DNA of 64,000 bases from Mumia flava (GTDB lineage Bacteria; Actinomycetota; Actinomycetes; Propionibacteriales; Nocardioidaceae), in contig NZ_PGEZ01000002.1 of assembly GCF_002797495.1 (NCBI RefSeq), positions 62,001-126,000 of the forward strand, given 5' to 3'. The position numbers and the translations under genes are program-made. The notes below the pieces were generated by a model. That model was given only the letters and a program-made list of their open reading frames with translations. It ran no database searches and was not told the DNA's origin. Shown here in pieces: positions 4,311 to 63,291 of this stretch; within the stretch, counting starts at the first letter, position 1, and every line of letters begins with the position of its first letter.

Positions 4311-5183
4311 CTACCGCGACAACGCGGCCTCGACCTCGAGACGACCGAGCTTCTCCGGGTTCCAGATGCCGAAGATCCGGGTGATCCGGCCGCCCTCGAT
4401 CGTGAGGCTCACCGCGCCCGCGAGGTCGTCGCCCACGAGGATCCGCGCCCCCGGCGCCCCGTTGAGCGTCGCCGCGACCGCGGAGACCGGACCGCCGGCC
4501 CGGGCGTGGGCGACGGTGACGAGCTTCGCGATGCGGTCGGCGCCGATGATCGGGTGCCGTGCAGCAGGCGCCACACCGCCGCCGTCGGACAGGATCACCA
4601 CGTCGGGTGCGAGCACGTCCATCAGGCCCTGCACGTCCCCGGTCGTGAACGCAGCGAGGAACTTCTCCACGACCACCTCCTGCTCGTCGCGGTCCACCGC
4701 GACCCGCGGGCGGCGGGCGGCGACGTGCTCGCGGGCGCGCCGCGCGATCTGCCGTACGGCCGCGGGCTTCTTCTCGATCGCCTGGGCGATCTCCTCGTAC
4801 GGCGCGTCGAACACCTCGCGCAGCACGAACACGGCGCGCTCGGTCGGCGACAGGGTCTCGAGCACCGTGAGCATCGCGATCGAGACGTTCTCCGCCAGCT
4901 CGACGTCTTCAGCCACGTCGGGGCTGGTCAGCAGCGGTTCGGGAAGCCACTCGCCGACGTACGTCTCGCGGCGGCGCGACAGCGCACGGAGCCGGTTGAG
5001 CGCCTGGCGGGTGACGATCCGCACGAGGTACGCCCGCGGGTCGCGCACCCCCGACCGGTCGACGCCGTCCCACCGCAGCCAGCTCTCCTGCACCACGTCC
5101 TCGGCGTCGGCGACGGAGCCGAGCATCTCGTACGCGACGGTGAAGAGGAGGCTGCGGTGGGTGACGAACGGGTCGTCGCTCAT
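4311..5183 (-). CDS. sigJ: ECF41-type RNA polymerase sigma factor (SigJ-like)
   Basis: This 290-residue protein has sigma-70 region 2 (about 5-70, AYEMLGSVADAEDVVQESWL), the ECF41 linker signature WLPEP near residue 80, region 4 (about 105-155, LSPTERAVFVLREVFDAPYE) and a C-terminal SnoaL-like domain with the conserved DGGG motif. In ECF41 factors that extension modulates activity in place of an anti-sigma factor. Its ATG overlaps the stop of the CMD-like gene by 4 nt (ATGA), the usual partner arrangement. The inducing signal is unknown in the family. Confidence 0.9.
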   Translation of the reverse strand: MSDDPFVTHRSLLFTVAYEMLGSVADAEDVVQESWLRWDGVDRSGVRDPRAYLVRIVTRQALNRLRALSRRRETYVGEWLPEPLLTSPDVAEDVELAENVSIAMLTVLETLSPTERAVFVLREVFDAPYEEIAQAIEKKPAAVRQIARRAREHVAARRPRVAVDRDEQEVVVEKFLAAFTTGDVQGLMDVLAPDVVILSDGGGVAPAARHPIIGADRIAKLVTVAHARAGGPVSAVAATLNGAPGARILVGDDLAGAVSLTIEGGRITRIFGIWNPEKLGRLEVEAALSR

Positions 5184-5788
5184 GCCTGGGAGAGTACGGC
5201 CAAGGTGACCGGCGCGTCAGGTGCGACCGCGAGGGGCGGGAGACCGCAGGCGCTCGACAGGCCCTGCGCCTCGATCCCCAGGGCGATGTTCATCCGTGTG
5301 GTCAGATTCATCATCCCGATGCGCGCGCTGAGCTCGATCACGGCGGGGATCCCCAGGTCCTCGACGAGCTCGTCCACCATCACGTCGGTGACCGTCAGCG
5401 GCGTCTCGCTCATCGCCTCCGCGAAGGCGAGCACGCGACGCTCCGTCGGCGTGAAGACGTCGGAGTCCCGCCAGCGGGGGACCTCGCGGGCCTTCTCCTC
5501 GTCGAGGTTGTGGTCGTGCGCGAGGTAGTAGTGCAGGTCGAGGCAGAAGCTGCACCCGACGTGGGCCGAGACGGCCATGTTCGCGAAGGTCGCGAGGTTG
5601 GGGTCGACCTGGTCCCAGCCCTCGGCCTTGCGCCCCGCCTTCATCAGATCCTTCAGCACGTCCTGGTGGTGCCACAGCACCCCGAGCGACTCGGGGACCT
5701 GTCCGAGGATCTTGCGGCTCATCGTCTTCGCGAGCCACCCGTACAGTCCGGTGACCTCGGCTGCGGGGATGCGAGCGGTGCTCGTCAT
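5180..5788 (-). CDS. Carboxymuconolactone-decarboxylase/AhpD-like protein, ECF41 partner
   Basis: This protein of about 202 residues contains CSFCLDLHYYLA, the CxxC-x3-His redox motif of the AhpD/CMD fold, at roughly residues 79-90. AhpD-like members can act as peroxidase-coupled disulfide reductases; this one is the partner protein found beside ECF41 sigma factors. ATG 5788 is preceded by AGGAGG. An ECF41-type promoter lies 47 nt upstream and the sigma gene overlaps its 3' end, so the two form an autoregulated operon. The chemistry is unproven. Confidence 0.85.
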   Translation of the reverse strand: MTSTARIPAAEVTGLYGWLAKTMSRKILGQVPESLGVLWHHQDVLKDLMKAGRKAEGWDQVDPNLATFANMAVSAHVGCSFCLDLHYYLAHDHNLDEEKAREVPRWRDSDVFTPTERRVLAFAEAMSETPLTVTDVMVDELVEDLGIPAVIELSARIGMMNLTTRMNIALGIEAQGLSSACGLPPLAVAPDAPVTLAVLSQA

Positions 5789-5834
5789 GTCTCCTCCTGG
5801 TGATCGTGGTCGGCTTCGGTGCCGTTGGCATGAA

Positions 5835-5861
5835 GACACCGGCCGGGCTCGTTCTGTGACA
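5835..5861 (-). promoter_or_regulatory. ECF41-type promoter (TGTCACA-N16-TGTC)
   Basis: On the minus strand TGTCACA (5855-5861) is followed after exactly 16 nt by TGTC (5835-5838), 47 nt before the ATG of the CMD-like gene. From memory, the ECF41 consensus is TGTCACA-N16-CGTC, so only one base differs. It implies that the encoded sigma factor drives its own operon. Confidence 0.75.
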
Positions 5862-5913
5862 CCGGCGCACAGCATCCCGGCAGGTCCGCGCGCAGGTCCC
5901 TACGCTGAGCGTC

Positions 5914-7754: not shown

Positions 7755-7782
7755 CCGATGAGTTCCTGTCCGGGGTCGCGTC
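7755..7782 (+). promoter_or_regulatory. Bipartite CCGATGAGT-N16-GTC promoter, site A
   Basis: CCGATGAGT (7755-7763) and GTC (7780-7782) are separated by 16 nt, about 44 nt before the ATG of the RibD-like gene at 7826, which has its own ribosome site. The same pair at the same spacing occurs upstream of four other genes in the window. It resembles the SigG-type ECF promoter as remembered (CGATGA...CGTC). Confidence 0.65.
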
Positions 7783-7825
7783 GACCTTCGTAGAGACCGA
7801 AGGAATCGACACGGAGGAGGACGGC

Positions 7826-8380
7826 ATGCGCCGACTTCTGCTGAACGAGAACATCACGGCTGACGGGCGGATCGAGATGCTGGACAGCTGGTTCGATCCG
7901 TCTCCGGAGGGCGATGTCGACGACCTGCAGGCGGAGCTCCAGCGGCAGGGCGAGGCGTCCGACGGGGTCCTGCTCGGACGTCAGACGTTCGAGGACTTCC
8001 GTGGGTACTGGCCGCAGCACACCGACGAGCCTGCCGGCGCCCACCTCGATCAGGTCGAGAAGTACGTCGTCTCGTCGTCGATGACCGATCCGCAGTGGCG
8101 GAACTCCACCGTCCTGGGGGGCGATCCTGTCGACGAGGTCCGTCGGCTCAAACTGACCGACGGCGGCGACATCGTGATGTCAGGGAGCATCACCTTGGCG
8201 CACGCTCTGCTGGCGGCAGGCGAGCTGGTCGACGAGATCTGCCTGTTCGTCTACCCGTACGTGCAGGGACGCGGACGCGGCCTGGTCGCGGACGGGACCG
8301 TGCTTCCGCGTCTCGAGCTGCTCGAGGCGCGGGGGTTCCGGTCGGGCGTGGCGATGCTGCGCTACGCGTGCGTGAGCTGA
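7826..8380 (+). CDS. RibD C-terminal/DHFR-like reductase family protein
   Basis: This 184-residue protein has the RibD_C/dihydrofolate-reductase fold: RRLLLNENITADGRIEML at the start, LLGRQTFEDFRGYWP (the LGRxT nucleotide-binding turn), and VMSGSITLAHALL for the dinucleotide phosphate loop. These stand-alone homologues probably bind NADPH; substrates are unknown. The start ATG 7826 follows GGAGGAGG. It is preceded by site A of the shared bipartite promoter. It is one of three such paralogues in the window (also 15811 and 17289). Confidence 0.8.
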   Translation: MRRLLLNENITADGRIEMLDSWFDPSPEGDVDDLQAELQRQGEASDGVLLGRQTFEDFRGYWPQHTDEPAGAHLDQVEKYVVSSSMTDPQWRNSTVLGGDPVDEVRRLKLTDGGDIVMSGSITLAHALLAAGELVDEICLFVYPYVQGRGRGLVADGTVLPRLELLEARGFRSGVAMLRYACVS

Positions 8381-8420
8381 GCCGTGTGGCCCAGGGTGCG
8401 GCGCGTGGTTCGATGGCCCC

Positions 8421-8894
8421 ATGACCGAGGGTGAGGCAGAATCGCGCGTCGTCAGCTCCAGCCGTGACATCGCCGCGGGACCGGCGGAGATCTTCGAGCT
8501 GATCGCCGACCCGGCCCAGCAGCCGCGATGGGACGGCAACGACAACCTGTCCGAGGCTGCACCCGAGCAGCGGGTGCGTGCCGTCGGCGACGTCTTCGAG
8601 ATGACGACGACGAAGGGCCAGCTCCGCGAGAACCACATCGTGGAGTTCGAGGAGGCGCGCCTGATCGCCTGGCGGCCGGCCGAGCCGGGCCGCAAGCCCC
8701 CGGGCCACCTCTGGCGGTGGGAGCTGGAGCCGATCGACGACGCGACGACACGGGTCACCCACACGTACGACTGGTCGCAGCTGACCGACACCAAGCGGCT
8801 TCCGCGGGCGCGCGCGACCACGGCTGACAGCCTGCGCGCGTCGATCGACCGGCTCGCGGGGCTGGTGGAAGAGGGGCCCGACGGGGAGGCGTAG
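8421..8894 (+). CDS. SRPBCC (polyketide cyclase-like) protein
   Basis: This 157-residue START-like protein has SSRDIAAGPAEIFELIADPA as the opening strand and helix, QPRWDGND, and a central RWELEPIDDATTRVTHTYDW strand pair. The branch is annotated polyketide cyclase/dehydrase-like, but no enzyme activity can be inferred. It has no clear Shine-Dalgarno; TTCGAT lies 6 nt before the ATG and could be a weak -10 for a leaderless mRNA. Confidence 0.75.
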   Translation: MTEGEAESRVVSSSRDIAAGPAEIFELIADPAQQPRWDGNDNLSEAAPEQRVRAVGDVFEMTTTKGQLRENHIVEFEEARLIAWRPAEPGRKPPGHLWRWELEPIDDATTRVTHTYDWSQLTDTKRLPRARATTADSLRASIDRLAGLVEEGPDGEA

Positions 8895-8898
8895 CCGA

Positions 8899-8926
8899 CC
8901 GATGAGTTCCGGGCACCGAACGGGTC
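8899..8926 (+). promoter_or_regulatory. Bipartite CCGATGAGT-N16-GTC promoter, site B
   Basis: CCGATGAGT (8899-8907) and GTC (8924-8926) lie 16 nt apart, 48 nt before the preferred start of the maleylpyruvate-isomerase-like gene at 8975. This is the second copy of the shared element. Confidence 0.6.
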
Positions 8927-8974
8927 CGTGTGCCTGGCACCATGGCCGACCCGATCAGACGAGGACTGTGCGCG

Positions 8975-9631
8975 ATGGCACGAGCTGACGACGACCGACT
9001 CTGGGACCTGGCGCGGATCGAGCGCGCGGCGCTCGTGAAGGACCTCGAGACACTGGACGCCGAGCAGTGGCGTCACGCGACGCTGTGCGGGCGGTGGGAC
9101 GTGGAGGAGGTCGTCGCCCACCTCACGGCTTCGGGGAGCGTCGGCTCGTGGCGGTGGTTCCGCAGCATGATCGGCGCCGGCTTCCGGACCGACGTGCACA
9201 ACCAGCGGCGGATGGAGGAGCACCGGGGGAGCGACCCCGCGGAGACGCTCGAACGATTCCGGGCCGTGGTCGACAGCACGACCGCGCCGTCGAGCCACAC
9301 CCCGGCGTACCTCGGCGAGGTCGTCGTGCACGCGCAAGACATCCGTCGGCCCTTGGGACTGGCGCACCGACCGAGCGTCGAGGCGTCCACGCCCGTCGCG
9401 GAGTTCTTCGTCCGGCAGAACTTCACGGTGTCGAGCCGTACGCACGCCGCTGGGCTCCGGTTGAGCGCGGACGACGGGCCGTTCGAGGCAGGGGAGGGGC
9501 CGCTGGTGACCGGGTCCACGCTCGCGCTGGTGATGGGCATGGCAGGTCGCGACGCGTATCTCGACGAGCTCGACGGTCCGGGAGCGGCGCTGCTGCGGTC
9601 GCAGGTGCGGGCGGCCGCAGATCACCGGTAG
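8975..9631 (+). CDS. Maleylpyruvate isomerase-like (DinB/MDMPI fold) protein
   Basis: This 218-residue protein has the TIGR03083/MDMPI layout: LWDLARIERAALVKDLETLD, then CGRWDVEEVVAHLTASG with the conserved Trp-Asp-x2-x-Val-x-His stretch. The His in VVAHL and later His residues (LGEVVVHAQDIRRP) fit the metal-binding triad of DinB-like proteins. Mycothiol is the thiol cofactor of characterised members. ATG 8942 is also in frame, but the promoter position favours 8975. It ends 10 nt inside the convergent S66 gene. Confidence 0.75.
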   Translation: MARADDDRLWDLARIERAALVKDLETLDAEQWRHATLCGRWDVEEVVAHLTASGSVGSWRWFRSMIGAGFRTDVHNQRRMEEHRGSDPAETLERFRAVVDSTTAPSSHTPAYLGEVVVHAQDIRRPLGLAHRPSVEASTPVAEFFVRQNFTVSSRTHAAGLRLSADDGPFEAGEGPLVTGSTLALVMGMAGRDAYLDELDGPGAALLRSQVRAAADHR

Positions 9632-10665
9632 TCGGCGAACAGACGCTGGGTGCTCCCGTCGACGGTCATGAATCCGCCGTACGGCACGATCCACTGCGGG
9701 CGGGTGTGCCCGAACGGTGGTCCGACCACGATGACGGCGTCGGGGTTGTAGCGACTCACGACCGCGATCGCCGCATCGCGCTGCTCGTCCCGTTTCGCGC
9801 GCCGTACCTCGGCAGGCGGCCGTACGACGAAGTCCGACGTCGGCGGACGCGCGACGACCACGGCCTCGACGGCTGCGAGAAGGCCGCGCTCGCCGAGCGA
9901 CCGGAGGATCCAGCCGAACTCGCGGGCCGGCATCAGCTCCTCGGAGGTCTCGACCAGCAGGACCCCGCCGTCGAGGACCGCAGGGTCGGTGGGGAAGCGG
10001 CCCGCGGTGAGGATCCACTGGAGGACGTCGACGCAGCCGCCCCAGGTCCGGCCGGTGACGGTCCGTTCGGGCCCGGCCCAGGTCCACGGCTCGGTCGGTT
10101 CACGCTCACCGAACTCGGACAGCGAGCGAGGATCCTCCCAGTCGATGCCGATGTCCTCGGACTCGCCGGGTTCGACGAGCTCGAGGCGCTCACCCGTGAG
10201 CAGTGCCGCTCGGAGGCTCTGCTCGTGGACCGGATCGACGTGCGGGCCCGCTCCCAGGTGGACCTGGGTCGAACCGCCGTAGAAGCCCGGCACGCCGTGG
10301 CTCCACAGCCAGTTCAGGAGGTTCGTGTTGTCGCTGTAGCCGAGGAAGGGCTTCGGGTCGCGGCTGGCAAGCTGCGCGTCGAGGTGGGGGACGACCGTGA
10401 TCTGGTCCTCGCCGCCGATCGTGGCGAGGACAGCACGGATCTCGGGGTCTCCGAACGCGGCGTTCAAGTCGGCCGCACGGTCCTCGGCTGAGGCGTCCAG
10501 GCGGCGTGTCGTCGGGTACTCGACCGGTACGAGTCCCGTGAGCGCGGCGAGTCGCTCGAGTGCCTGGTCGTGGACGGCCGGTGCCACGGCGGGCGCGGCG
10601 AACGAAGGGGAGAGGACGGCGACCTTGTCGCCAGGCTGGGCCTTCGGAACCGACACGAACTCCAT
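9622..10665 (-). CDS. S66-family peptidase (LD-carboxypeptidase/MccF-like)
   Basis: This 347-residue serine peptidase shows the S66 pattern: AVLSPSFAAP near the N-terminus, ATIGGEDQ, nucleophile S111 in FLGYSDNT, glutamate in LVETSEE near residue 240 and histidine in PPFGHTRPQ near 317. Relatives cleave the L,D-bond of muropeptides during wall recycling or inactivate the nucleotide-peptide antibiotic microcin C (MccF); the length and loop pattern fit MccF-like members at least as well. TACCGT (10672-10677) lies 6 nt before the ATG, so it is probably leaderless. Confidence 0.8.
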   Translation of the reverse strand: MEFVSVPKAQPGDKVAVLSPSFAAPAVAPAVHDQALERLAALTGLVPVEYPTTRRLDASAEDRAADLNAAFGDPEIRAVLATIGGEDQITVVPHLDAQLASRDPKPFLGYSDNTNLLNWLWSHGVPGFYGGSTQVHLGAGPHVDPVHEQSLRAALLTGERLELVEPGESEDIGIDWEDPRSLSEFGEREPTEPWTWAGPERTVTGRTWGGCVDVLQWILTAGRFPTDPAVLDGGVLLVETSEELMPAREFGWILRSLGERGLLAAVEAVVVARPPTSDFVVRPPAEVRRAKRDEQRDAAIAVVSRYNPDAVIVVGPPFGHTRPQWIVPYGGFMTVDGSTQRLFADYR

Positions 10666-10686
10666 GCCTCGACGGTAGGGCGTGTG

Positions 10687-11097
10687 TCACCTGGTTTTCG
10701 GGTCGTCCGCGGCGTCGAGGCGGTCGAGGACGCGAGTGCTGAGACGCTCGTACTCGCGCTCGACGCGGTGAGGGCCGGTCGGTCGTTCGACCATCTGCCT
10801 GCCCGTCACCAGCTCGTCAGCGCCGAACTGCTCGCGAGTCAGATCGATCTCCGTGCCGTCCGCGAGCCGGTTCCACCAGTGGTAATCGACCTGTTGCCCG
10901 CCGACGTGCACCTCGCCGCGTACGAGCTCGCCCCCGAGGAAGTCGTGGACGACGAGCACGGTCGTGATGCACTGACCGCGAGCCGGGTTCTGTGGGCTCC
11001 ACGCCGGACGGTCCTCGGGTGCGCACGTGTCGGCATCCCAGGCGTCGCGCAGTGCGCGAGTGAGCTCCTCGAGGGTTACGGTGCGCGCGGTCGACAC
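10687..11097 (-). CDS. YunG-like small protein of unknown function
   Basis: This 136-residue protein resembles Bacillus YunG: NPARGQCITTVLVVHDFLGG, VDYHWWNRLADG and EIDLTREQF occur in the same order. The conserved Cys, His and Trp residues hint at a cysteine-peptidase-like fold, but no activity is known. It starts at GTG 11097 with TAGACT (11104-11109 on the minus strand) 6 nt away, so it is predicted leaderless. An 11-bp palindrome lies further upstream. Confidence 0.6.
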   Translation of the reverse strand: MSTARTVTLEELTRALRDAWDADTCAPEDRPAWSPQNPARGQCITTVLVVHDFLGGELVRGEVHVGGQQVDYHWWNRLADGTEIDLTREQFGADELVTGRQMVERPTGPHRVEREYERLSTRVLDRLDAADDPKTR

Positions 11098-11149
11098 CGC
11101 GTCAGTCTAGGTGCAGGGAGTTGCGTGCGGTGGTCAGTCGCTACAGAAT

Positions 11150-11160
11150 GACATAATGTC
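11150..11160 (-). promoter_or_regulatory. Palindrome GACATAATGTC upstream of the YunG-like gene
   Basis: This AT-rich perfect palindrome lies 40 nt upstream of the -10 hexamer of the gene at 10687. Position and composition suggest a regulator site, but there is no second copy in the window to support it. The rest of 11110-11289 shows no gene. Confidence 0.35.
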
Positions 11161-11289
11161 GCTTATCGGCGCACCAGGGAGCCCGCGGCGGTGCCTCGCA
11201 CGGCGGGCCCCTCGGTTCGCCATGCGGTCAGCAGGCGTACGTCGCCCGACGCTGCGACGAGGTCGACGTCGCGTACCGAGACTGCGGCC

Positions 11290-11313
11290 GCGCAGCGCCT
11301 TCCGGCGCTGCGC
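11290..11313 (-). terminator. Hairpin directly after the MTHFR-like stop codon
   Basis: GCGCAGCGCC-TTCC-GGCGCTGCGC is a perfect 10-bp stem with a 4-nt loop and begins at the base after the stop codon of the minus-strand gene. There is no T-tract, which is common for actinobacterial terminators. Confidence 0.65.
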
Positions 11314-12234
11314 CTAGCGGCGAAGGTCTCCGCCGATCACGCGAGCGAGGTCCACCGACGCCTCGATCTCCGCACGACGGATCGACACGCTCTCCACGTT
11401 GACCCCGAACGGGACGCCCATGCGTCGGCAGAATCCGATCAGCTCGCGCGCGGCGCCGAGCGCGTGCTCGTACGACGCCTGGAGCGTGTCGTCGGCGTGC
11501 CGCAGGTCGTTCTGGATCCACCTCGGCACGTCGACACCGAGCCAGTCCAGGAACTCCATCGTCTTCAGCGATCCGCACACCGAGAACGTGAACACGATCG
11601 GCACGGGATCGAGGCCGCGCGCGACGCACTCGTACCGATAGTCGGAGACGAGGTTCTTCGCGGCATTGGCGTCGTAGACGACCTGCGTGACGAAGAACGA
11701 GCAGCCGGCTTCCTGCTTCGCGATCAGGCGAAGGTGCTCGTCTCCCCTGCGGGTGTGGCGCTCGGGGATCGCGACTCCCCCGAGCCTCAGGTCGGGTCGG
11801 GTCTGCGCCCACAGCTCCTGAGCGCGTACGAGCGAGGTCGCCGGCTGCGCGTGTCGCGACGACGCGCCGACGAAGACCGTCAGGGCGCGGTCGGCGTCCT
11901 GCGCCTCCAACCACGCACGGAGGTCGTCCTCGTCGTACTTGCCGACCGCCCGGTACACCACGACCGGTGTGGTCACGTCCGTCAGGTGCTGGGCACGGAA
12001 CGCCGCCGGGTCCATCGTGGGCAGGAACGGGAAGGGCCGTTCCGCCGGGTTGCGGTTGCTCTCGTCGTCGATGTCGTAGAGGACGAGCCCGTCGAGGCGC
12101 AGCGGAGCGAGGCGCTCCTGCGTCACGTCGGCGATCTCCCGGGCCCGCTCACGCGTGACCGTGACCCGAGGAGGAGTCACAGCGAAGAACAAGAGCTCGC
12201 TCCCCCGTGCCGCGATCCGTTGCGCCAGGTCCAT
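11314..12234 (-). CDS. Methylenetetrahydrofolate reductase-like protein
   Basis: This 306-residue TIM-barrel protein belongs to the MTHFR/MetF-like superfamily: LLFFAVTPPRV opens the barrel, KQEAGCSFFVTQVVYDAN matches the GA-x-F-x-TQ folate/FAD strand (usually GADFFITQ), and IVFTFSVCGS follows. A canonical MetF reduces 5,10-methylene-THF with FAD. The changes in the N-terminal motif suggest a divergent member, so activity should not be assumed. TACTTT (12241-12246, minus) lies 6 nt before the ATG, and a hairpin follows the stop. Confidence 0.7.
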   Translation of the reverse strand: MDLAQRIAARGSELLFFAVTPPRVTVTRERAREIADVTQERLAPLRLDGLVLYDIDDESNRNPAERPFPFLPTMDPAAFRAQHLTDVTTPVVVYRAVGKYDEDDLRAWLEAQDADRALTVFVGASSRHAQPATSLVRAQELWAQTRPDLRLGGVAIPERHTRRGDEHLRLIAKQEAGCSFFVTQVVYDANAAKNLVSDYRYECVARGLDPVPIVFTFSVCGSLKTMEFLDWLGVDVPRWIQNDLRHADDTLQASYEHALGAARELIGFCRRMGVPFGVNVESVSIRRAEIEASVDLARVIGGDLRR

Positions 12235-12367
12235 GGGCCGAAAGTAGCGGACCGCCGGCCGCTCAGCGCCTTCCGCCGGCGTTCGTGGGCCCTGGTCTCG
12301 TGACGATCGCGGACTACCGGAACACGATGCCCGCGCGGACCCGGCTTCTCATGGCCATGATGGCCTG

Positions 12368-13096
12368 ATGACGGTCTACTCCGGCACTCAGGAGTTCGAG
12401 GGCGCGACCTTCGTTCGAGCAAGCTTCAAGGGAGCCACCATGCGGTTCTCCGACGTCAGCGGTGTCACGATGCGCGGCGTCGACCTGGACGGCCTCGACA
12501 TCGACAGCCACGACCTGGCCTTCGGCAGCCTCGTCGTCAACGGCGTCGACGTCGTGCCGATGGTCGAGGCCGAGCTCAACCGCCGGTTCCCCGGCCGCGA
12601 GCTCCAGTCGGCGCAGACGCCCGAGGGACTCCGCGAGGGCTGGGTGGCCGCGCAGTCCGCGTGGCGCGAGACCGTGACAGGCACGCCGCCCGAGCTCCGC
12701 GACGCTCACGTCGAGGACGAGTGGTCCCTGGCGCAGACGTTGCGGCACCTCGTCCTCGCGACCGACGCCTGGCTCCGTGGCGCGATCCTGCGTCTGCCGC
12801 AGCCGTTCCACGAGATCGGCCAGATCTTCACCGGCGCCGAGCAGATGGGCTTCGACACCTCGATCTTCCGTACGGACCCGGCGTCGTACGACGAGATCCT
12901 CACCGTGCGCGCCGACCGGCAGCAGCAGGTCACCGACTTCCTGGAGTCGGCCACGCCGGAGCTGCTCGCTCAGGAGCGCGACGACCCGTGGGGCAACGAC
13001 TGGCATCCCAGCGTCGGCGACTGCGTACGCGTGATCCTGGAGGAGGAGTGGGCGCACCTGCGCTACGTACGCCGGGATCTCGCGCGTCTGCGCTGA
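12368..13096 (+). CDS. Pentapeptide-like plus DinB-fold protein
   Basis: This 242-residue protein has an N-terminal stretch with pentapeptide-repeat rhythm (ATFVRASFKGATMRFSDVSG, about residues 13-45) followed by a DinB/MDMPI-like four-helix domain with VEDEWSLAQTLRHLVLATDAW and a C-terminal VILEEEWAHLRYVRRDL. The paired His residues fit DinB metal ligands. Function is unknown. A clear paralogue lies at 13675, with a grpB-like gene between them. The 3' end overlaps that gene by 34 nt in convergent orientation. Confidence 0.75.
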   Translation: MTVYSGTQEFEGATFVRASFKGATMRFSDVSGVTMRGVDLDGLDIDSHDLAFGSLVVNGVDVVPMVEAELNRRFPGRELQSAQTPEGLREGWVAAQSAWRETVTGTPPELRDAHVEDEWSLAQTLRHLVLATDAWLRGAILRLPQPFHEIGQIFTGAEQMGFDTSIFRTDPASYDEILTVRADRQQQVTDFLESATPELLAQERDDPWGNDWHPSVGDCVRVILEEEWAHLRYVRRDLARLR

Positions 13097-13656
13097 TCGC
13101 GCGCGCGTGCCTTGATCTCCTCGATGACCGCGGTCTTCGCGTCGGCGTACGCGTTCATGTCCGCCCAGTCGCGCGCGACCAGATCCCGCTTCGTCGCCTC
13201 GTAGAGCCGACGGTCGGCCTCGTCGACCCGAAGGTGGTCCCGCAGCAGCAGGTGGTCGTCGGCGGCCGGGTCGTCCGGCTCGAGGATGTGGACGTGCACG
13301 TCCCGCTCGGTCGTCCGAATCATCCGGTGGCCCGGCTCGCGCACGCGCAGGACGTAACCGGCCGCCAGCAACGGCTCGAGGTAGTCCTCCTCCGCGGTGA
13401 TGTCGGGCACCGTGAGCTGGACGTCGATGATCGGCTTGGCGGCGAGTCCCGGCACCGAGGTCGAGCCGATGTGCTGGACGTCGACCACGCCGCCGCCGAC
13501 CGCGTCGCGCACCCGGGACTCGTGGGTCGCGTACGCGACCGCCCACGCCGGGTCGTGCTCGACCAGGAACAGGTCGCGCCGCTCGACTCCCCCGACGAGC
13601 TCGAGGTCGGTCACGTCGTCGCGACGGCGCGTGCGGGTCTCGCGAGTTTCGTCCAC
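13063..13656 (-). CDS. GrpB/UPF0157-family nucleotidyltransferase-fold protein
   Basis: This 197-residue protein carries the UPF0157 signature VVDVQHIGSTSVPGLAAKP followed by IIDVQLTV, a nucleotidyltransferase core with GS and D-x-D-like residues, and HVHILEP later. The family (GrpB) has no firmly assigned reaction. The chosen start is GTG 13656, because TAGTGT (13664-13669, minus) lies 7 nt before it. Only 18 nt separate it from the divergent DinB paralogue, and its 3' end overlaps the other DinB gene. Confidence 0.75.
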   Translation of the reverse strand: MDETRETRTRRRDDVTDLELVGGVERRDLFLVEHDPAWAVAYATHESRVRDAVGGGVVDVQHIGSTSVPGLAAKPIIDVQLTVPDITAEEDYLEPLLAAGYVLRVREPGHRMIRTTERDVHVHILEPDDPAADDHLLLRDHLRVDEADRRLYEATKRDLVARDWADMNAYADAKTAVIEEIKARARDQRRRARSRRT

Positions 13657-13674
13657 GAGCAGCACACTAGTCAC
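13657..13674. promoter_or_regulatory. 18-bp bidirectional leaderless promoter
   Basis: Two divergent start codons (GTG 13656 minus, GTG 13675 plus) are separated by only 18 bp. TAGTGT serves the minus gene (7-nt gap), and CACACT (13663-13668) on the plus strand sits 6 nt before the other GTG. The two -10 elements overlap on opposite strands, so only one polymerase can open the region at a time. Confidence 0.55.
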
Positions 13675-14439
13675 GTGCCTGACGACGACATCGCTACCGG
13701 CCAGCTCCGTGGCGCACGCATCCACCTGAGCGACCTGGCCGGGCTCGAGATCCGTGACTGCGACGTCAGCGGCCTCAAGATCGTCGACTGCTACGGGGAC
13801 CGCGTCGCACTGAGCGGCGCGTTCGAGCGTGTGCTCGTCAACGACGTCGACGTCACGGCCTACGTCCAGGCCGAGCTCGATCGGGTGGAGCCCGCACGTG
13901 CGCTGGCACGCGACGCCGACTCCCCCGACGACTACCGGTCGACCTGGGACGCACTGGAGTCCGTGTGGGACGCCACGATCGAGCGCGCTCGCCGGTTGCC
14001 CGAGGCCGCGCTGCACGAACGGGTCGACGGCGAGTGGTCGTTCGTCGAGACGCAACGGCACCTGCTGTTCGCGAGCGACGCGTGGCTCGGCAACGCGGTG
14101 CTCGAGGAGCACGCCCCGTACCACCCGCTCGGCTGTCCGGCCGACGGGATGCCCGCCGCGGACACGGCCCGGCTCGGGCTGACGCTCGACGCCGAGCCGA
14201 CGCTCGAGGACGTGCTCGCGCCACGGCGTGCACGCATGGCGACGATGCGCGCGACCGTCGGGCGACTCACGGACGACGAGCTCGACCGGGTGTGCGGCCG
14301 CAAGCCCGCCGACCCGTACCCGGACCAGACCTACGTCGTGCGCCGCTGCCTGAAGGTCGTCCTGAAGGAGGAGGCCGAGCACCATCGGTACGCGGTGCGC
14401 GACCTCGCGGTGCTCGAGGGTCGCCCCGCGCCTGCGTGA
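13675..14439 (+). CDS. Pentapeptide-like plus DinB-fold protein, paralogue
   Basis: This 254-residue protein is a paralogue of 12368-13096: N-terminal five-residue rhythm (ARIHLSDLAGLEIRDCDVSG), then the same VLVNDVDVTAYVQAELDR segment and DinB-like helices with VDGEWSFVETQRHLLFASDAW and VVLKEEAEHHRYAVRDL. Conserved His residues suggest a bound metal. Function is unknown. It shares an 18-bp intergenic region with the divergent grpB-like gene, so the three genes probably act or evolve together. Confidence 0.75.
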   Translation: MPDDDIATGQLRGARIHLSDLAGLEIRDCDVSGLKIVDCYGDRVALSGAFERVLVNDVDVTAYVQAELDRVEPARALARDADSPDDYRSTWDALESVWDATIERARRLPEAALHERVDGEWSFVETQRHLLFASDAWLGNAVLEEHAPYHPLGCPADGMPAADTARLGLTLDAEPTLEDVLAPRRARMATMRATVGRLTDDELDRVCGRKPADPYPDQTYVVRRCLKVVLKEEAEHHRYAVRDLAVLEGRPAPA

Positions 14440-14484
14440 AGGCGTTCCGCGCCGACGTGATCGCCTGACATACGCTTCCAGGCG

Positions 14485-15792
14485 ATGAGCAGGAACACGG
14501 ACTTCGAGGACGAGATCTTCACGGCCCTCGCCGACGGCGTCGACGACGGTGTGGCCGACGACGACGGCGGGCTCTCCGAGTACGCGCTGGAGCGCGAGGC
14601 GGCGAGCTTCACCCGGCACGTCGGGTCGTTGAGCGCGACCAAGGTCGCCGACGGCCTGCTCGATCCCAAGCTCGTGCTCAGCTGGTTGCTGAGCCACCTC
14701 GGCGCCTCCAGCTTCTTCACCGGCCTGCTCGTCCCGCTCCGCGAGGCCGGATCGCTGCTCCCCCAGCTCGTCATCGCGCCACGGGTCCACGCGCTCGCGC
14801 GCCGCAAGTGGGCCTGGGCGGCCGGCTCGCTGGTCCAGGGGCTCGCGTGCGCCGGGATCGTGGTCGCCGCACTCACCCTGGAGGGCAACGCCGCCGGGAT
14901 CGCCGTCTGCGTGCTCCTGACGATCCTCGCCGCCGCCCGCGCGGCCTGTTCGGTCAGCCACAAGGACGTCCTGCGCAAGACCGTCGGCAAGACACGGCGC
15001 GGGTCGTCGACCGGCTTCGCGTCCTCGGCCGCATCGGTCGGCGTGATCGTGTTCGCCGTCCTGCTCATGATCGGCGCTCCCAGCCGGTACGTGCTCGTCG
15101 TCGGAGCGCTGACGCTCGCGTCCGTGCTGTGGATCGGTGCGGCTGCGCTCTTCGCGACCATTCCCGAGGAGGCGTCGCACAGCGAGACCGACCGCGCCGT
15201 GTGGAGCCAGCTGTCGCTGCTGCGCGAGGATCCGCAGCTGCGTCTGTTCATCGTGGTGCGGGGACTGCTGACCGCGACCGCCCTCGCTCCCCCGTACCTC
15301 GTGCTGCTCGCCTCGTCCGGCGCTCGCGACTCGCTCGACCAGCTCGGCGCGCTGGTGCTCGCGTCCGCGCTGGCCTCGCTCGTCAGCAGCTACGTCTGGG
15401 GGCGGCTCAGCGACCGGTCCAGCCGCGCCGTCCTGCAGCGGTCCGGGATCGCCGCGGCCGTCGCGCTCGGCGCCGCGCTCGGGCTCGCCGCCGCCGGCCT
15501 GGCCGACACGCTGTGGGCGATGCCGGTCGCGCTGTTCGTCCTCATGATCGCGTACGAGGGTGTTCGGCAGGGCCGATCGACCTATCTCGTGGACATGGCG
15601 CCCGCCGATCAGACCCCGGCGTACACGGCGGTCGCGAACACGGTGATCGGAGTCGTCCTGCTCGCATCGGGTCTCTTCGGGGCCCTGGCGTCGCTGGCGG
15701 GCGTCGAGGTGACCGTGGCGCTGTTCGCCCTGATGTCGCTCGGCGCTGCGGTCGCGGCGATCCGCCTGCGCGAGGTCGAGCACCGACGCTGA
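14485..15792 (+). CDS. MFS-type transporter
   Basis: This 435-residue protein has about 60 acidic, soluble N-terminal residues followed by roughly ten to twelve membrane helices. VWGRLSDRSSRAVLQ in the middle is an MFS motif-A-like loop between helices, and AYEGVRQGRSTYLVDMAP lies in the C-terminal half. Substrate unknown. TACGCT (14471-14476) lies 8 nt before the ATG without a ribosome site, so it is predicted leaderless. It is convergent with the RibD-like gene at 15811. Confidence 0.75.
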   Translation: MSRNTDFEDEIFTALADGVDDGVADDDGGLSEYALEREAASFTRHVGSLSATKVADGLLDPKLVLSWLLSHLGASSFFTGLLVPLREAGSLLPQLVIAPRVHALARRKWAWAAGSLVQGLACAGIVVAALTLEGNAAGIAVCVLLTILAAARAACSVSHKDVLRKTVGKTRRGSSTGFASSAASVGVIVFAVLLMIGAPSRYVLVVGALTLASVLWIGAAALFATIPEEASHSETDRAVWSQLSLLREDPQLRLFIVVRGLLTATALAPPYLVLLASSGARDSLDQLGALVLASALASLVSSYVWGRLSDRSSRAVLQRSGIAAAVALGAALGLAAAGLADTLWAMPVALFVLMIAYEGVRQGRSTYLVDMAPADQTPAYTAVANTVIGVVLLASGLFGALASLAGVEVTVALFALMSLGAAVAAIRLREVEHRR

Positions 15793-15810
15793 GGCCAGAC
15801 GGCGACGCGA

Positions 15811-16419
15811 TCACGCCGGGTCGGGTGCGCCGCCGGCCTCCGGCGGGCCGTCGAGGCGCCGCAACCGCAGCTCGAGGATGCCGGTGGCGTACGCGCGCGG
15901 CGGCCGGAGCTGCTCGAACCGCGTCGGTGCGGAGCCCTCGGGGAACAACCGCTTGCCGGTCCCGATCACGACCGGGCACACCCACAGGTTCAGCTGGTCG
16001 ACGAGGTCGGCACGGAACAGCGTCCGGAGCAGGTCGGCGCTCCCCCACGTGTGGATCTGCTCGTGCCGGGTCCGCAGCTCCCGGACCTCGGGCTCGACGT
16101 CGCGCAGCTGCGTGCTCGCGCGCCAGGTGAGGTCGGGCGTCCCCCGCGACGCGACGTACTTCGGGATCCGGTCGAACGCCTGTCCGATCGGGTCGGTCTG
16201 CCCGGGCCAGTAGTCACGGAAGATGTCGTACGTCACCCGGCCCAGCAGGAGCGCGTCGGACGCCTGCGCATCGAGCTCGAGCCGGTGGTTGGCCTCGTCG
16301 TCCCAGTACGGCCGCTCCCAGCCGCCGTACGCGAACCCGGCGTCCTGCGGCGTCGGGCCGCCGTTGGCCTGGATCACACCGTCCAGCGTCGAGATGATGT
16401 TGACGTGGAGCTCGCCCAT
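15811..16419 (-). CDS. RibD C-terminal/DHFR-like reductase family protein
   Basis: This 202-residue protein starts ELHVNIISTLDGVIQANGGP, the DHFR/RibD_C opening in which the Asp contacts substrate in true reductases, and has LLLGRVTYDIFRDYWPGQ, TWGSADLLRTLFRADLVDQL and VIGTGKRLFP for the NADPH pocket. Stand-alone members of this type are uncharacterised oxidoreductases. ATG 16419 follows GGGAGGCGG. Site C of the shared promoter element lies about 37 nt before the start. Confidence 0.85.
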   Translation of the reverse strand: MGELHVNIISTLDGVIQANGGPTPQDAGFAYGGWERPYWDDEANHRLELDAQASDALLLGRVTYDIFRDYWPGQTDPIGQAFDRIPKYVASRGTPDLTWRASTQLRDVEPEVRELRTRHEQIHTWGSADLLRTLFRADLVDQLNLWVCPVVIGTGKRLFPEGSAPTRFEQLRPPRAYATGILELRLRRLDGPPEAGGAPDPA

Positions 16420-16455
16420 GGTTCCGCCTCCCGGTCGTCGGATCTCGTCAGGGCT

Positions 16456-16483
16456 GACCCTGCGTGTCCGCCGAACTCATCGG
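16456..16483 (-). promoter_or_regulatory. Bipartite CCGATGAGT-N16-GTC promoter, site C
   Basis: On the minus strand CCGATGAGT (16475-16483) is followed after 16 nt by GTC (16456-16458), 36 nt before the ATG of the RibD-like gene. Its -35 half overlaps the hairpin after the racemase gene. Confidence 0.65.
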
Positions 16484-16497
16484 CCGGCTCTCCGGCC
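16482..16497 (-). terminator. Short hairpin after the racemase gene
   Basis: GGCCGG-CTCT-CCGGCC is a 6-bp GC stem ending 5 nt downstream of the racemase stop on the minus strand. It has no T-tract and overlaps the -35 half of promoter site C by two bases. Confidence 0.4.
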
Positions 16498-16501
16498 CCG
16501 G

Positions 16502-17197
16502 TCACCCGCGCGCGAGGGCGAAGTCGACGGCGGCCACCGCATGGAGCGCGGTCGTCGGGAAGACGGGCACGTCGACGTCGCCCTGCCCGACCAGCAGCTC
16601 GATCTCGGTGCACCCGAGGATCACGCCCTGCGCGCCGCGCTCGACCAGGCGATCGATGACCTCGACGTACGCAGCGCGTGACGCGTCCCGGACGACCCCC
16701 TGGACGAGCTCGTCGTAGATGATGGCGTGGACCGTCTCCCGATCCGCTGCATCCGGCACGATCGTCTCGATCCCGCGGTCGGCGAGACGGTCGGGGTAGA
16801 GCGGGCTGCTCATGGTGTAGCCGGTCGCGAGCAGGGCCACCGTGGTGACGCCGGCCGCCGCGATCGCGTCGGCGGCGACGTCGACGATGTGGAGCAGCGG
16901 GATGCTCACGGCGTCGGTGATCCGGTCGGCGACCAGGTGCATCGTGTTGGTGCAGAGGACCAAGCACTCCGCGCCGCCCGCCTCGAGCGCCGCTGCCTCG
17001 CGGGCGAGGAGCTCCCCCGCGCGGTCCCAGTCGTCGGCGGCCTGGAGCGCCTCGACGTCGTGGAAGTCCACCGACGCCATCGTGCAGAGCGCCGAGTGGA
17101 AGCCACCGAGCCGGTCCCGCACGTGCTCGTTCACGAGCTGGTAGTAGAGCGCCGAGCTCTCCCAGCTCATCCCGCCCACCAGTCCGATCCTGCGCAT
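16502..17197 (-). CDS. Aspartate/glutamate racemase-family protein
   Basis: This 231-residue protein begins RRIGLVGGMSWESSALYYQL, the hallmark of the Asp/Glu racemase family, and carries both catalytic cysteines, in LVLCTNTMH and VILGCTEIEL. PLP-independent members interconvert L- and D-aspartate or glutamate by two-base chemistry; this subgroup (YgeA-like) can have broad or different substrates. TAGGTT on the minus strand lies 7 nt before the ATG (plus 17205-17210), so it is leaderless by prediction. Confidence 0.85.
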   Translation of the reverse strand: MRRIGLVGGMSWESSALYYQLVNEHVRDRLGGFHSALCTMASVDFHDVEALQAADDWDRAGELLAREAAALEAGGAECLVLCTNTMHLVADRITDAVSIPLLHIVDVAADAIAAAGVTTVALLATGYTMSSPLYPDRLADRGIETIVPDAADRETVHAIIYDELVQGVVRDASRAAYVEVIDRLVERGAQGVILGCTEIELLVGQGDVDVPVFPTTALHAVAAVDFALARG

Positions 17198-17223
17198 GGT
17201 CTCGAACCTACCCCGCCGGCGGA

Positions 17224-17251
17224 CCGATGAGTCCGCGACCGCGAGCCGGTC
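17224..17251 (+). promoter_or_regulatory. Bipartite CCGATGAGT-N16-GTC promoter, site D
   Basis: CCGATGAGT (17224-17232) and GTC (17249-17251) are 16 nt apart, 37 nt before the ATG of the RibD-like gene at 17289. Together with sites A and C, all three RibD-like paralogues in the window carry the element. Confidence 0.65.
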
Positions 17252-17288: not shown

Positions 17289-17867
17289 ATGTCCGACTTG
17301 ATGATCGACTGCATCACGTCTCTCGACGGATTCGGGGCGGCGGAGGGGTGGCCGGGACTGTGGGGGCTGGGCGGACCGGAGTACTTCGAGCTGCTCGAGA
17401 CCGATCCCCACCGCCACGACACGCTGCTCATGGGTGCCACGACGTACCGCCTGTTCGAGGAGTTCCTCCGGACCGGAGAACCGGGGATCGAGGCGCTCGC
17501 GGAGATCCCCAAGGTCGTCTTCTCGAGCACGCTCACCGAGCCGCTCGCATGGGAGCGCACGACGCTCGTCTCCTCGGACGCCACAGAGGCGGTCCGGACG
17601 ATGAAACGGGAGTCCGACGCGGGTCTGCGGACGCTGGGGAGCCCGACGCTGTGCCGCTCGCTGCTCGAAGCCGGGCTGGTCGACCGGTACCGCGTCGTGG
17701 TGTTCCCGGTCGTCAACGGCGCCACAGGTCAGGACCGGATGTACGACGGCTGGCCGGACGTCGCGCTCGACCTGATCGAGTCGCGCACGCTCGACGGGCG
17801 GCTGCAGCTCCTCGAGTACGCACCGACGGTCCTCGACGGCCCGCCGGGGACGGACGCGACCGCATGA
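17289..17867 (+). CDS. RibD C-terminal/DHFR-like reductase family protein
   Basis: This 192-residue protein starts SDLMIDCITSLDGFGAAEG, has TLLMGATTYRLFEEFL (nucleotide loop) and TLGSPTLCRSLLEAGLVDRY, and ends in the small C-terminal sheet of the RibD_C fold. The LGRxT motif is altered to MGATT, which may weaken NADPH binding. Its substrate is unknown. The ATG at 17289 follows CGAAGGGA. It is the third such paralogue and has promoter site D upstream. Confidence 0.8.
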   Translation: MSDLMIDCITSLDGFGAAEGWPGLWGLGGPEYFELLETDPHRHDTLLMGATTYRLFEEFLRTGEPGIEALAEIPKVVFSSTLTEPLAWERTTLVSSDATEAVRTMKRESDAGLRTLGSPTLCRSLLEAGLVDRYRVVVFPVVNGATGQDRMYDGWPDVALDLIESRTLDGRLQLLEYAPTVLDGPPGTDATA

Positions 17868-61373: not shown

Positions 61374-61401
61374 CCGATGAGTATTTCGCTCGAATCCTGT
61401 C
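61374..61401 (+). promoter_or_regulatory. Bipartite CCGATGAGT-N16-GTC promoter, site E
   Basis: CCGATGAGT (61374-61382) and GTC (61399-61401) are 16 nt apart, 64 nt before the ATG of the ABC transporter gene. Exact spacing matches sites A-D in the first 18 kb of the window, 44 kb away. Confidence 0.65.
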
Positions 61402-61465: not shown

Positions 61466-62461
61466 ATGCTGACGAGCGCGGGTCCCGCGATCGAGACCGA
61501 GGGTCTGGTGAAGACCTTCGGCGACAAACGTGCGGTCGACGGGATCGACCTGGTGGTGCCGCAGGGCGGTGTGTACGGGTTCCTGGGCCCCAACGGCGCC
61601 GGGAAGACGACCACGATCCAGATGCTGGCCACGCTCCTGCGGCCCGACGGCGGCAGCGCCCGCGTCCTCGGCCACGACGTGGAGAGCGATCCCGACGGCG
61701 TCCGCAGCGTCGTCAGCCTGACGGGACAGTACTCCTCGGTCGACGAGGACCTGACGGGCCGCGAGAACCTCCTGCTCCTCGGGCGTGTCCTCGGGTTCTC
61801 CCGGGCACAGGCGCGGCAGCGGTGCGACGACCTGCTGGAGGCGTTCGACCTGACCGACGCCGCCAACAAGCAGGTGAAGCGCTACTCGGGCGGGATGCGC
61901 AGACGGCTCGACATCGCCGCGAGCATCGTCGTCACGCCCCAGCTGCTCTTCCTCGACGAGCCCACGACCGGCCTCGATCCTCGCAGCCGCAACCAGGTCT
62001 GGGAGATCGTCCGTGCGCTGACCGCGCGCGGGACGACCGTGCTGCTGACGACGCAGTACCTCGACGAGGCCGACCAGCTGGCGGAGCGGATCGCGGTGAT
62101 CGACTCGGGGCGGGTGATCGCCGAGGGCACGAGCAGCCAGCTCAAGGCCTCCGTGGGGTCCGGGTCGTTGCACGTCCATCTGCACGACCCCGGCGACCAG
62201 GCCCGTGCGATCGACGTTCTGACCCGCGCGTTCGGCGAGGAGGTCTTCGCCGGGTCCGACCCGGCCGACGTGGTCGCCCGGGTGGACGACCGGACGAAGG
62301 TTCCACCGGCGCTCGCGACGCTGTCGGCCGACGGCGTCGAGCTGGCCGGCTTCAGCTACGGACAGCCCACCCTCGACGAGGTGTTCCTCTCCCTGACCGG
62401 ACGGTCGGCCGAGGACGCCGCCGAGGAGCCGGAAGCGGAGCACGAAGGAGTGCGAGCATGA
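61466..62461 (+). CDS. DrrA-type ABC exporter ATPase
   Basis: This 331-residue ATPase has Walker [10 protein letters not shown] near residue 43, signature [18 protein letters not shown], Walker [14 protein letters not shown] and a switch His replaced by Gln in [11 protein letters not shown], as in daunorubicin-resistance DrrA proteins. The C-terminal extension ends [12 protein letters not shown], also a DrrA feature. With the downstream permease it should export a drug or lipid. ATG 61466 follows GGGGAGG. Promoter site E lies upstream, so induction by the shared sigma factor is likely. Confidence 0.9.
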
Positions 62462-63291
62462 CCACCACAGCGACACCGCAGACGACGGCGGACAAGCTCG
62501 ACTCGGTCCTCGCGGCCGGTCCGCGACCCAGCAGGCCCGGCGGCGTCACCACCTCGCTCGCGTTCGGGTGGCGGGCGATCCTGCGGATCAAGCACGTGCC
62601 GGAGCAGCTGTTCGACGTCACGCTGTTCCCGGTGATGTCCGTCCTGCTGTTCACCTACCTGTTCGGCGGCGCGATCGCCGGCTCCACCGACGCGTACCTC
62701 CAGTACGTGCTGCCCGGGATCCTCGTGCAGACGATCGTGATGATCACGATGTACACCGGCGTCGCCTTGAACACCGACATCGAGAAGGGCGTGTACGACC
62801 GCATCCGGACGCTGCCGGTGTGGCGTCCGTCGGCGCTGGTCGGTGCGCTGCTCGGAGACGCGGTTCGCTACACGCTGGCGTCGGTCTTCGTGGTCGTGCT
62901 CGGTCTCGTGCTCGGCTACCGACCGGACGGTGGCCTGCCGGGCGTCGTGGCCGGCGTCGCGCTGCTCATGGTGTTCTGCTTCGGGTTCTCGTGGATCTGG
63001 ACGTTCCTCGGTCTGCTCGCCCGCAGTCCGCAGTCCGTGATGGGGATCAGCATGATGATCCTCTTCCCGGCGGCCTTCCTCAGCCCGGTCTTCGTGGACC
63101 CCGAGACGATGCCGGGGTGGCTGCAGGTGTTCGTCGAGATCAACCCGATCTCCCACGTCGTCTATGCCGTGCGCGGTCTGATGGCCGGCGACGCGGTCGG
63201 CGACGAGGTGATGTGGACGCTGGTCGCCGCCGCCGTGATCACAGCGATCTTCGCGCCGCTGACCATGAGCCGGTTCGGCAAGCGTCGCTGA
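62458..63291 (+). CDS. ABC-2 type permease (DrrB-like)
   Basis: This 277-residue protein has a soluble N-terminus and six membrane helices: [60 protein letters not shown] and later ones. [20 protein letters not shown] is the conserved DrrB coupling segment. ATG 62458 overlaps the ATPase stop by 4 nt, so the two are translationally coupled. It is convergent with prcA. Confidence 0.9.

Follow-up and report, generated by a model that had tools for sequence, protein, structure and literature searches.

Five copies of a two-part element in the window

The DNA analysed here is a stretch of 64,000 nucleotides from Mumia flava (the window), in which a 9-mer followed at a fixed distance by GTC, i.e., CCGATGAGT-N16-GTC, occurs five times in exact form. 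We read this element as a SigG-type promoter, i.e., one used by RNA polymerase carrying a SigG-like extracytoplasmic function (ECF) sigma factor. The first copy (7755..7782, plus strand) ends 43 nt before the ATG at 7826 of a gene for a RibD_C/DHFR-like reductase (7826..8380, plus; PF01872, 66.2 bits). The second (8899..8926, plus) ends 48 nt before the ATG at 8975 of a gene for a mycothiol maleylpyruvate isomerase-like protein with an MDMPI_N domain (8975..9631, plus; PF11716, 38.8 bits). Two further RibD_C/DHFR-like reductases follow the third and fourth copies: one (15811..16419, minus; PF01872, 61.2 bits) has its ATG at 16419, 36 nt beyond the copy at 16456..16483 on the minus strand, and the other (17289..17867, plus; PF01872, 78.4 bits) has its ATG at 17289, 37 nt beyond the copy at 17224..17251 (plus). 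The fifth copy (61374..61401, plus) stands 64 nt before the ATG at 61466 of a gene for a DrrA-type ATP-binding cassette (ABC) exporter ATPase (61466..62461, plus; PF00005, 99.4 bits).

A prediction made earlier from the letters of the window (the original prediction) had named these five places and the same three RibD_C proteins, MDMPI_N protein and ABC exporter as targets, and had judged five copies to be more than chance would give. On all of this we agree: in 100 dinucleotide shuffles of the window the mean expectation was 0.01 copies, and none of the 100 reached five. Its distance of 36-48 nt from GTC to the start codon holds for the four sites between 7755 and 17251, but not for the fifth. 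It had also placed every copy outside genes, as is the case for all five with the start codons chosen here; the copy at 17224 lies upstream of a divergent gene, 27 nt from its ATG at 17197, and longer open reading frames (ORFs) do overlap the site.

Between 4000 and 19000, small enzymes of AHSA1/polyketide-cyclase-like, RibD_C, MDMPI-like and other kinds are clustered, and only part of them bear the motif. Within 4311-5875, a gene for an ECF41/SigJ-type sigma factor (4311..5183, minus; TIGR02957, 354.7 bits) lies beside a carboxymuconolactone decarboxylase-family gene, an arrangement that we take to be the typical ECF41 pair. The original prediction had the relevant sigma factor encoded outside the window, which is correct for the SigG-like one described below, but it had overlooked this ECF41 gene. 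At the other end of the window, the DrrA-type ATPase gene is followed by an ORF that, judged by eye, resembles a membrane protein and ends at 63291.

The predicted regulon in the genome and the genus

When the genome of the window (4.40 Mb in seven contigs) was searched with spacers of 15-17 nt, there were 16 matches, compared with one for the reversed pattern. Fourteen have the form CGATGAGT-N16-GTC (reversed control, 0), and every one of the 14 is followed by a coding-like ORF with its chosen start 23-64 nt downstream; start codons were picked by codon-position GC content and Shine-Dalgarno-like sequence, and single starts may be off. This search, with 16 ± 1 nt to GTC, had been proposed with the original prediction, and it placed all 14 N16 matches before predicted gene starts rather than within genes. 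The other two spacings, with one site each, were rejected: N15 was met within an ECF gene, on the antisense strand, and N17 within an ORF. The 9-mer CCGATGAGT originally proposed fits all five window sites, but its first C is present at only 11 of the 14 genomic sites (79%), leaving CGATGAGT as the core. The logo of the 14 sites is (A)CCGATGAGTTC-N14-GTC, with the trailing C at 86%, and their spacers are all different.

By Pfam, the genes behind the 14 sites encode five RibD_C/DHFR-like reductases and two MDMPI_N proteins. The remaining targets are one each of a glyoxalase-superfamily protein (L001, PF00903), an acyl-CoA dehydrogenase, a DUF4287 protein, the ABC exporter ATPase, a LigD primase-polymerase, an MMPL transporter and a BNR-repeat protein. 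To judge by these classes, the products would chemically modify or hydrolyse reactive or foreign compounds, handle them by way of mycothiol or export them, and one target is a DNA end-joining polymerase.

The motif is conserved in the genus. Six Mumia genomes hold 83 motif places (including the 14 above), 81 with a downstream gene call and two without; the calls are doubtful at three copies of one repeated stretch in genome G064 (weak coding signal) and at L348, where a short ORF lies 155 nt off. The 81 downstream genes include 21 with RibD_C, nine with Abhydrolase_6, five with Beta-lactamase, five with FAD_binding_4 and BBE, four each with DUF4287, MDMPI_N and YCII, three each with LigD_Prim-Pol and DUF1905, and two each with MMPL, ABC_tran and 3-dmu-9_3-mt, the last presumably a glyoxalase-related fold. 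Sixty of the 81 fall into 19 clusters (at least 45% identity) common to two or more Mumia genomes, and six of the 14 targets in the window's genome belong to such clusters. The motif at 61374 likewise has a counterpart before a similar gene (at least 45% identity) in another Mumia genome (L394). Close species share some promoters letter for letter (e.g., L338 and L356), so that not all sites are independent. In G064, three of the 21 sites (L331, L332 and L351) share an identical motif-bearing 27-mer with the same ORF behind it, possibly a mobile repeat.

The SigG-like sigma factor and the weighing of alternatives

The core element has a published counterpart. Written as CGATGA-N18-GTC, CGATGAGT-N16-GTC is identical in both halves and in spacing to the SigG promoter of M. 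tuberculosis, CGATGA(N18)GTCNNTA (PMC3776920, cited here from excerpts, like the other papers below). The original prediction had suggested a SigG-type promoter, and this stood, although the form that it gave did not: by itself, CGATGA-N(15-19)-CGTC is not specific, with four matches in the window where 3.5 were expected.

Among the 24 sigma region-2 matches over the cut-off in the window's genome, a single protein matches TIGR02960 (SigX5) at E <= 1e-60. Its gene is at G000:C1:2138621, on a contig other than that of the window, and the protein scores 398 bits against a curated cut-off of 264.75. It has sigma regions 2 and 4 (PF04542, 77.2 bits; PF08281, 56.1 bits; L132 protein), ECF size and a C-terminal SnoaL_2 domain (PF12680, 38.3 bits; cut-off 27). 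Upstream of its gene, here called sigG, a box TGTCNGNTGCGTACG is found in 6/6 Mumia genomes (L132:4573-4587 in the window's genome), and six of its seven occurrences in all are at sigG. In the M. tuberculosis type of regulon, DNA damage induces sigG through a promoter that is independent of RecA; we take the resemblance of the Mumia box to the RecA_NDp box to be only partial. Directly 3' of sigG (L132:5677-7406) lies TGTCACA-N16-CGTC, presumably an ECF41-type promoter form, and behind it come the gene of an NAD(P)-binding protein and that of a second SigJ-like sigma factor. Judged by eye, at least three other Mumia loci (L111, L113 and L118) have this element behind sigG too.

Across 197 genomes of the family, we extracted 150 TIGR02960 sigma factors and assigned them to three clades by best match to three reference sigmas; about ten weaker matches (e.g., all those of six genomes) were left out. 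In a careful tree of 71 of the 150 together with the window's ECF41, clades 2 and 3 are well supported and clade 1 is an unresolved base, with several long branches uncertain. The Mumia sigma falls in clade 2, in which G153 and G185 are probably misfiled. The number of motifs per genome follows the type of sigma: the median is 7 with a clade 1 sigma (n = 71) and 5.5 with a clade 2 sigma (n = 22), and 1 both with clade 3 only (n = 31) and with no TIGR02960 match (n = 67); it is 0.5 in the six genomes whose TIGR02960 matches were not placed. Within the genus g7 alone, the medians are 7 with a clade 1 or 2 sigma (n = 45) and 0 without (n = 26). Altogether, the 93 clade 1/2 genomes contain 694 motifs versus 13 for the reversed pattern.

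The motif also precedes sigma genes themselves, in the sister clade. CGATGAGT-N16-GTC is found within 180 nt upstream of 49 of the 150 sigma genes; in the same regions spacers of 15 and 17 occur in none, and each of the remaining lengths between 10 and 23 was seen at 0-4 genes. These 49 divide into 46/73 for clade 1, 1/22 for clade 2 and 2/55 for clade 3, and the form CGATGA-N18-GTC gives 62/73, 1/22 and 3/55. Because this form precedes 62 of the 73 clade 1 genes, clade 1 sigmas are very probably autoregulated by it.

At 6/22 clade 2 loci, a copy of the motif stands beside the sigma gene, and five of these six motifs precede Pfam Glyoxalase genes (L109, L124, L167, L173 and L217). A glyoxalase-superfamily target, as in the M. 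tuberculosis SigG regulon, was thus found both in the window's genome (L001) and, with PF00903 matches, among clade 2 neighbours. In a set of titled records, i.e., the best 80 of 499 clade-2-like loci, there were 28 motifs, compared with 0 for the reversed pattern, and 18 of the loci have between them 20 motifs no more than 450 nt from the sigma gene; the two locus sets overlap slightly, L253 and L258 holding the same motif copies as the family loci L109 and L124. Pfam was applied to 12 further downstream genes, one of them from the Mumia set. Those of the titled records gave four Glyoxalase (L267, L271, L272 and L280), two AHSA1 (L312 and L319), two STAS (L286 and L327), one DrrA-type ABC (L306) and one MDMPI_N (L330); the gene at L322 had no Pfam match. 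The small STAS-domain gene is convergent with the clade-2-type sigG and bears the motif in several Streptomyces and other loci (L286, L327); it is perhaps a feedback partner of this sigma.

Taken together, we consider, with a probability of roughly 87%, that the motif serves as promoter for RNA polymerase containing the SigG-like (TIGR02960; ECF56-type) sigma factor encoded once in the genome. In the mechanism that we propose, region 4 of the sigma would recognise CCGATGAGTTC as the -35 element and region 2 GTC as the -10 element, held at the fixed spacing of CGATGAGT-N16-GTC; the SigG holoenzyme would bind there and start transcription a few nucleotides after GTC. The C-terminal SnoaL_2 tail would probably sense or gate the trigger, and a scattered regulon of 14 exact promoters, mostly of detoxification-type genes, would be switched on together by one sigma. 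The targets would depend directly on it, and the set may be the stress regulon that the original prediction had proposed. Its members would serve to modify or export reactive or foreign compounds, and the regulon would also be linked to DNA damage.

Several observations weigh against this assignment. Autoregulation, which is the strongest link, is seen for clade 1 and not for the Mumia sigma itself: the strict motif was looked for upstream of sigG in six Mumia genomes and found in none, and self-control of sigG through it was rejected there. The TA after GTCNN is not conserved in the 14 sites (C43/A36/T14 and C50/G29/A14 percent), although it is partly present in the 49 sigma-gene promoters (T51 and A47 percent). 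The other 104 genomes still contain 140 motifs versus 14 reversed; six of those that lack TIGR02960 hold 4-8 motifs (one of them is only 77% complete and one has a tandem repeat), and one clade-3-only genome has four. Conversely, counts below four are seen in 20 of the 93 clade 1/2 genomes (12/71 in clade 1 and 8/22 in clade 2). The genome-level tests treat genomes without correction for shared ancestry. Finally, the motif reported for the ECF56 factor SigG1 of Streptomyces tsukubaensis is CCG-17-CCCTCC, unlike that of Mumia (PMC7730460).

A different ECF sigma might read the motif, e.g., the ECF41/SigJ protein, whose gene is some 2.6 kb away from the first motif site, or one of the other candidates among the 24 region-2 matches. 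However, ECF41 (TIGR02957 at E <= 1e-90, 81 genomes), the only ECF group compared in this way across genomes, is unassociated with motif number (p = 0.29), and in genomes without a clade 1/2 sigma the median is 0 motifs with ECF41 and 1 without. At the 25 sigma region-2 loci of the genome, the strict CGATGAGT-GTC element occurs only antisense inside one ECF gene, with N15, and it is what we take to be the ECF41 form, TGTCACA-N16-CGTC, that stands downstream of sigG before the oxidoreductase and second ECF41 genes. We rejected ECF41 on these counts; the window's copy is probably not the reader, and recognition by any other ECF sigma is improbable.

An operator for a conventional transcription factor would suit the long, strongly conserved 9-mer, and operators presumably also often lie close to starts. 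Yet the element is asymmetric and two-part, with fixed spacing at promoter distance, it follows the sigma gene across genomes, and it equals a promoter derived from a mapped start (PMC3776920), which makes an operator somewhat less probable still. Spread by chance or by a mobile repeat could account for the identical 27-mers in G064 and for three tandem copies in G105; in the window's genome this was refuted by the 14 different spacers and by shuffles and reversed patterns that gave approximately none, and the downstream genes recur across species, so that we give it hardly any weight.

A second element in clade 3 and comparison with known systems

While clades 1 and 2 go with the element beginning with C, upstream regions of clade 3 sigmas have another. 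Dyads were counted in 71 clade 1, 20 clade 2 and 55 clade 3 regions (without L145, L146, L186 and L250; L159b was also left out of the covariation test, and L159b and L169 of the clade consensus). The best dyad in clade 3 was GATGAG-17-GTC (44/55), and 40/55 clade 3 sigmas have TGATGAGT-N16-GTC before their own gene, with the consensus GTGATGAGTTC-N14-GTCATA. Counted over all 197 genomes, T-type copies number 105 versus 23 for the reversed pattern, with 0-3 per genome and none in the window's genome. Of the 52 genomes with an extracted clade 3 sigma, 43 have the element (59 sites, 40 of them belonging to the sigma genes themselves), as do 38 of the 145 others (46 sites). Clade 3 sigmas may thus mainly control themselves.

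Residue 172 (Mumia numbering), at the start of the recognition helix, is Ala in 60/62 C-type clade 1 sigmas and in two of the three C-type clade 3 sigmas (L224 and L231), and Asn or His in 43/43 T-type sigmas. Three further clade 3 members with Ala172 have CGATCA-type elements, by a looser, post hoc pattern. The residues that make purine-specific hydrogen bonds in a SigW structure (PMC6713349) map to positions 175, 176 and 180 in an alignment by eye, and residue 172 adjoins these contacts without being one of them. Against a role for this residue, L235 has Asn with a C-type promoter and L169 has Ala with neither type. Many other alignment columns also separate the clades, and there are only 2-3 tree-independent changes, of which 2/2 on supported branches are concordant (p = 0.5). 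Because of these last two points, residue 172 as specificity determinant is a candidate and a lead. Our tentative model, to which we give slightly less than an even chance, has two codes differing at the first -35 base: CGATGAGT-N16-GTC for clades 1 and 2, serving scattered detoxification-type regulons, and GTGATGAGTTC-N14-GTCATA for clade 3, serving chiefly its own gene, with the choice made largely by residue 172, where Ala would select C, and Asn or His would select T.

The 694 sites in 93 genomes fix the promoter and its spacing and yield a regulon that is met repeatedly in the genus; they also suggest that its job is to modify and export compounds that are reactive or foreign. The earlier basis was a promoter from two genes (PMC3776920) and a conflicting Streptomyces motif (PMC7730460). 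With two proposed promoter codes and a candidate residue, promoter choice by SnoaL-tailed ECF sigmas becomes directly testable. The promoter type itself is already known from M. tuberculosis, from those two genes. In the literature searched, which lacks most subscription journals, we found no report of so wide a regulon, of its conservation or of the second code; no paper joining SigG and RibD was found in that search, and a query with the motif sequence as words gave nothing related among the matches listed. A published logo of the ECF56 group might already show the motif.

Among known systems, ECF41/SigJ factors share with the SigG type a SnoaL-like C-terminal extension, although the match of the window's copy is weak (23.7 bits; cut-off 27). 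That copy belongs to TIGR02957 rather than TIGR02960, its presence does not track the motif, and the ECF41 promoter differs from the SigG-type motif. The nearest solved sequence to Mumia SigG is chain A of PDB 7qh5 ("RNA polymerase sigma factor"; E = 6e-56), with the recognition helix VASVKSALQRAR compared with VASVNSALQRAR in Mumia. S. tsukubaensis SigG1, an ECF56 factor, combines an ECF core with a C-terminal SnoaL_2 domain, as does Mumia SigG, and has a co-transcribed anti-sigma factor, RsfG (PMC7730460).

The closest comparison is with M. tuberculosis SigG, for which the excerpted text of Gaudion et al. 2013 (PMC3776920) reports no mutant phenotype in the assays described. Its promoter was derived there from the mapped start of Rv0887c and an alignment with Rv0911, and the TA of its GTCNNTA is not kept at the Mumia sites. 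The sigma's own promoter was unaffected by SigG overexpression, and Mumia sigG likewise lacks the strict motif. Six M. tuberculosis genes are reported to depend on SigG, compared with the 14 exact sites in Mumia, where RibD_C reductases form the largest class. Rv0887c and Rv0911 are both glyoxalase-like, as are the two top SigG targets, and glyoxalase-superfamily targets are common to the two systems (PMC3776920).

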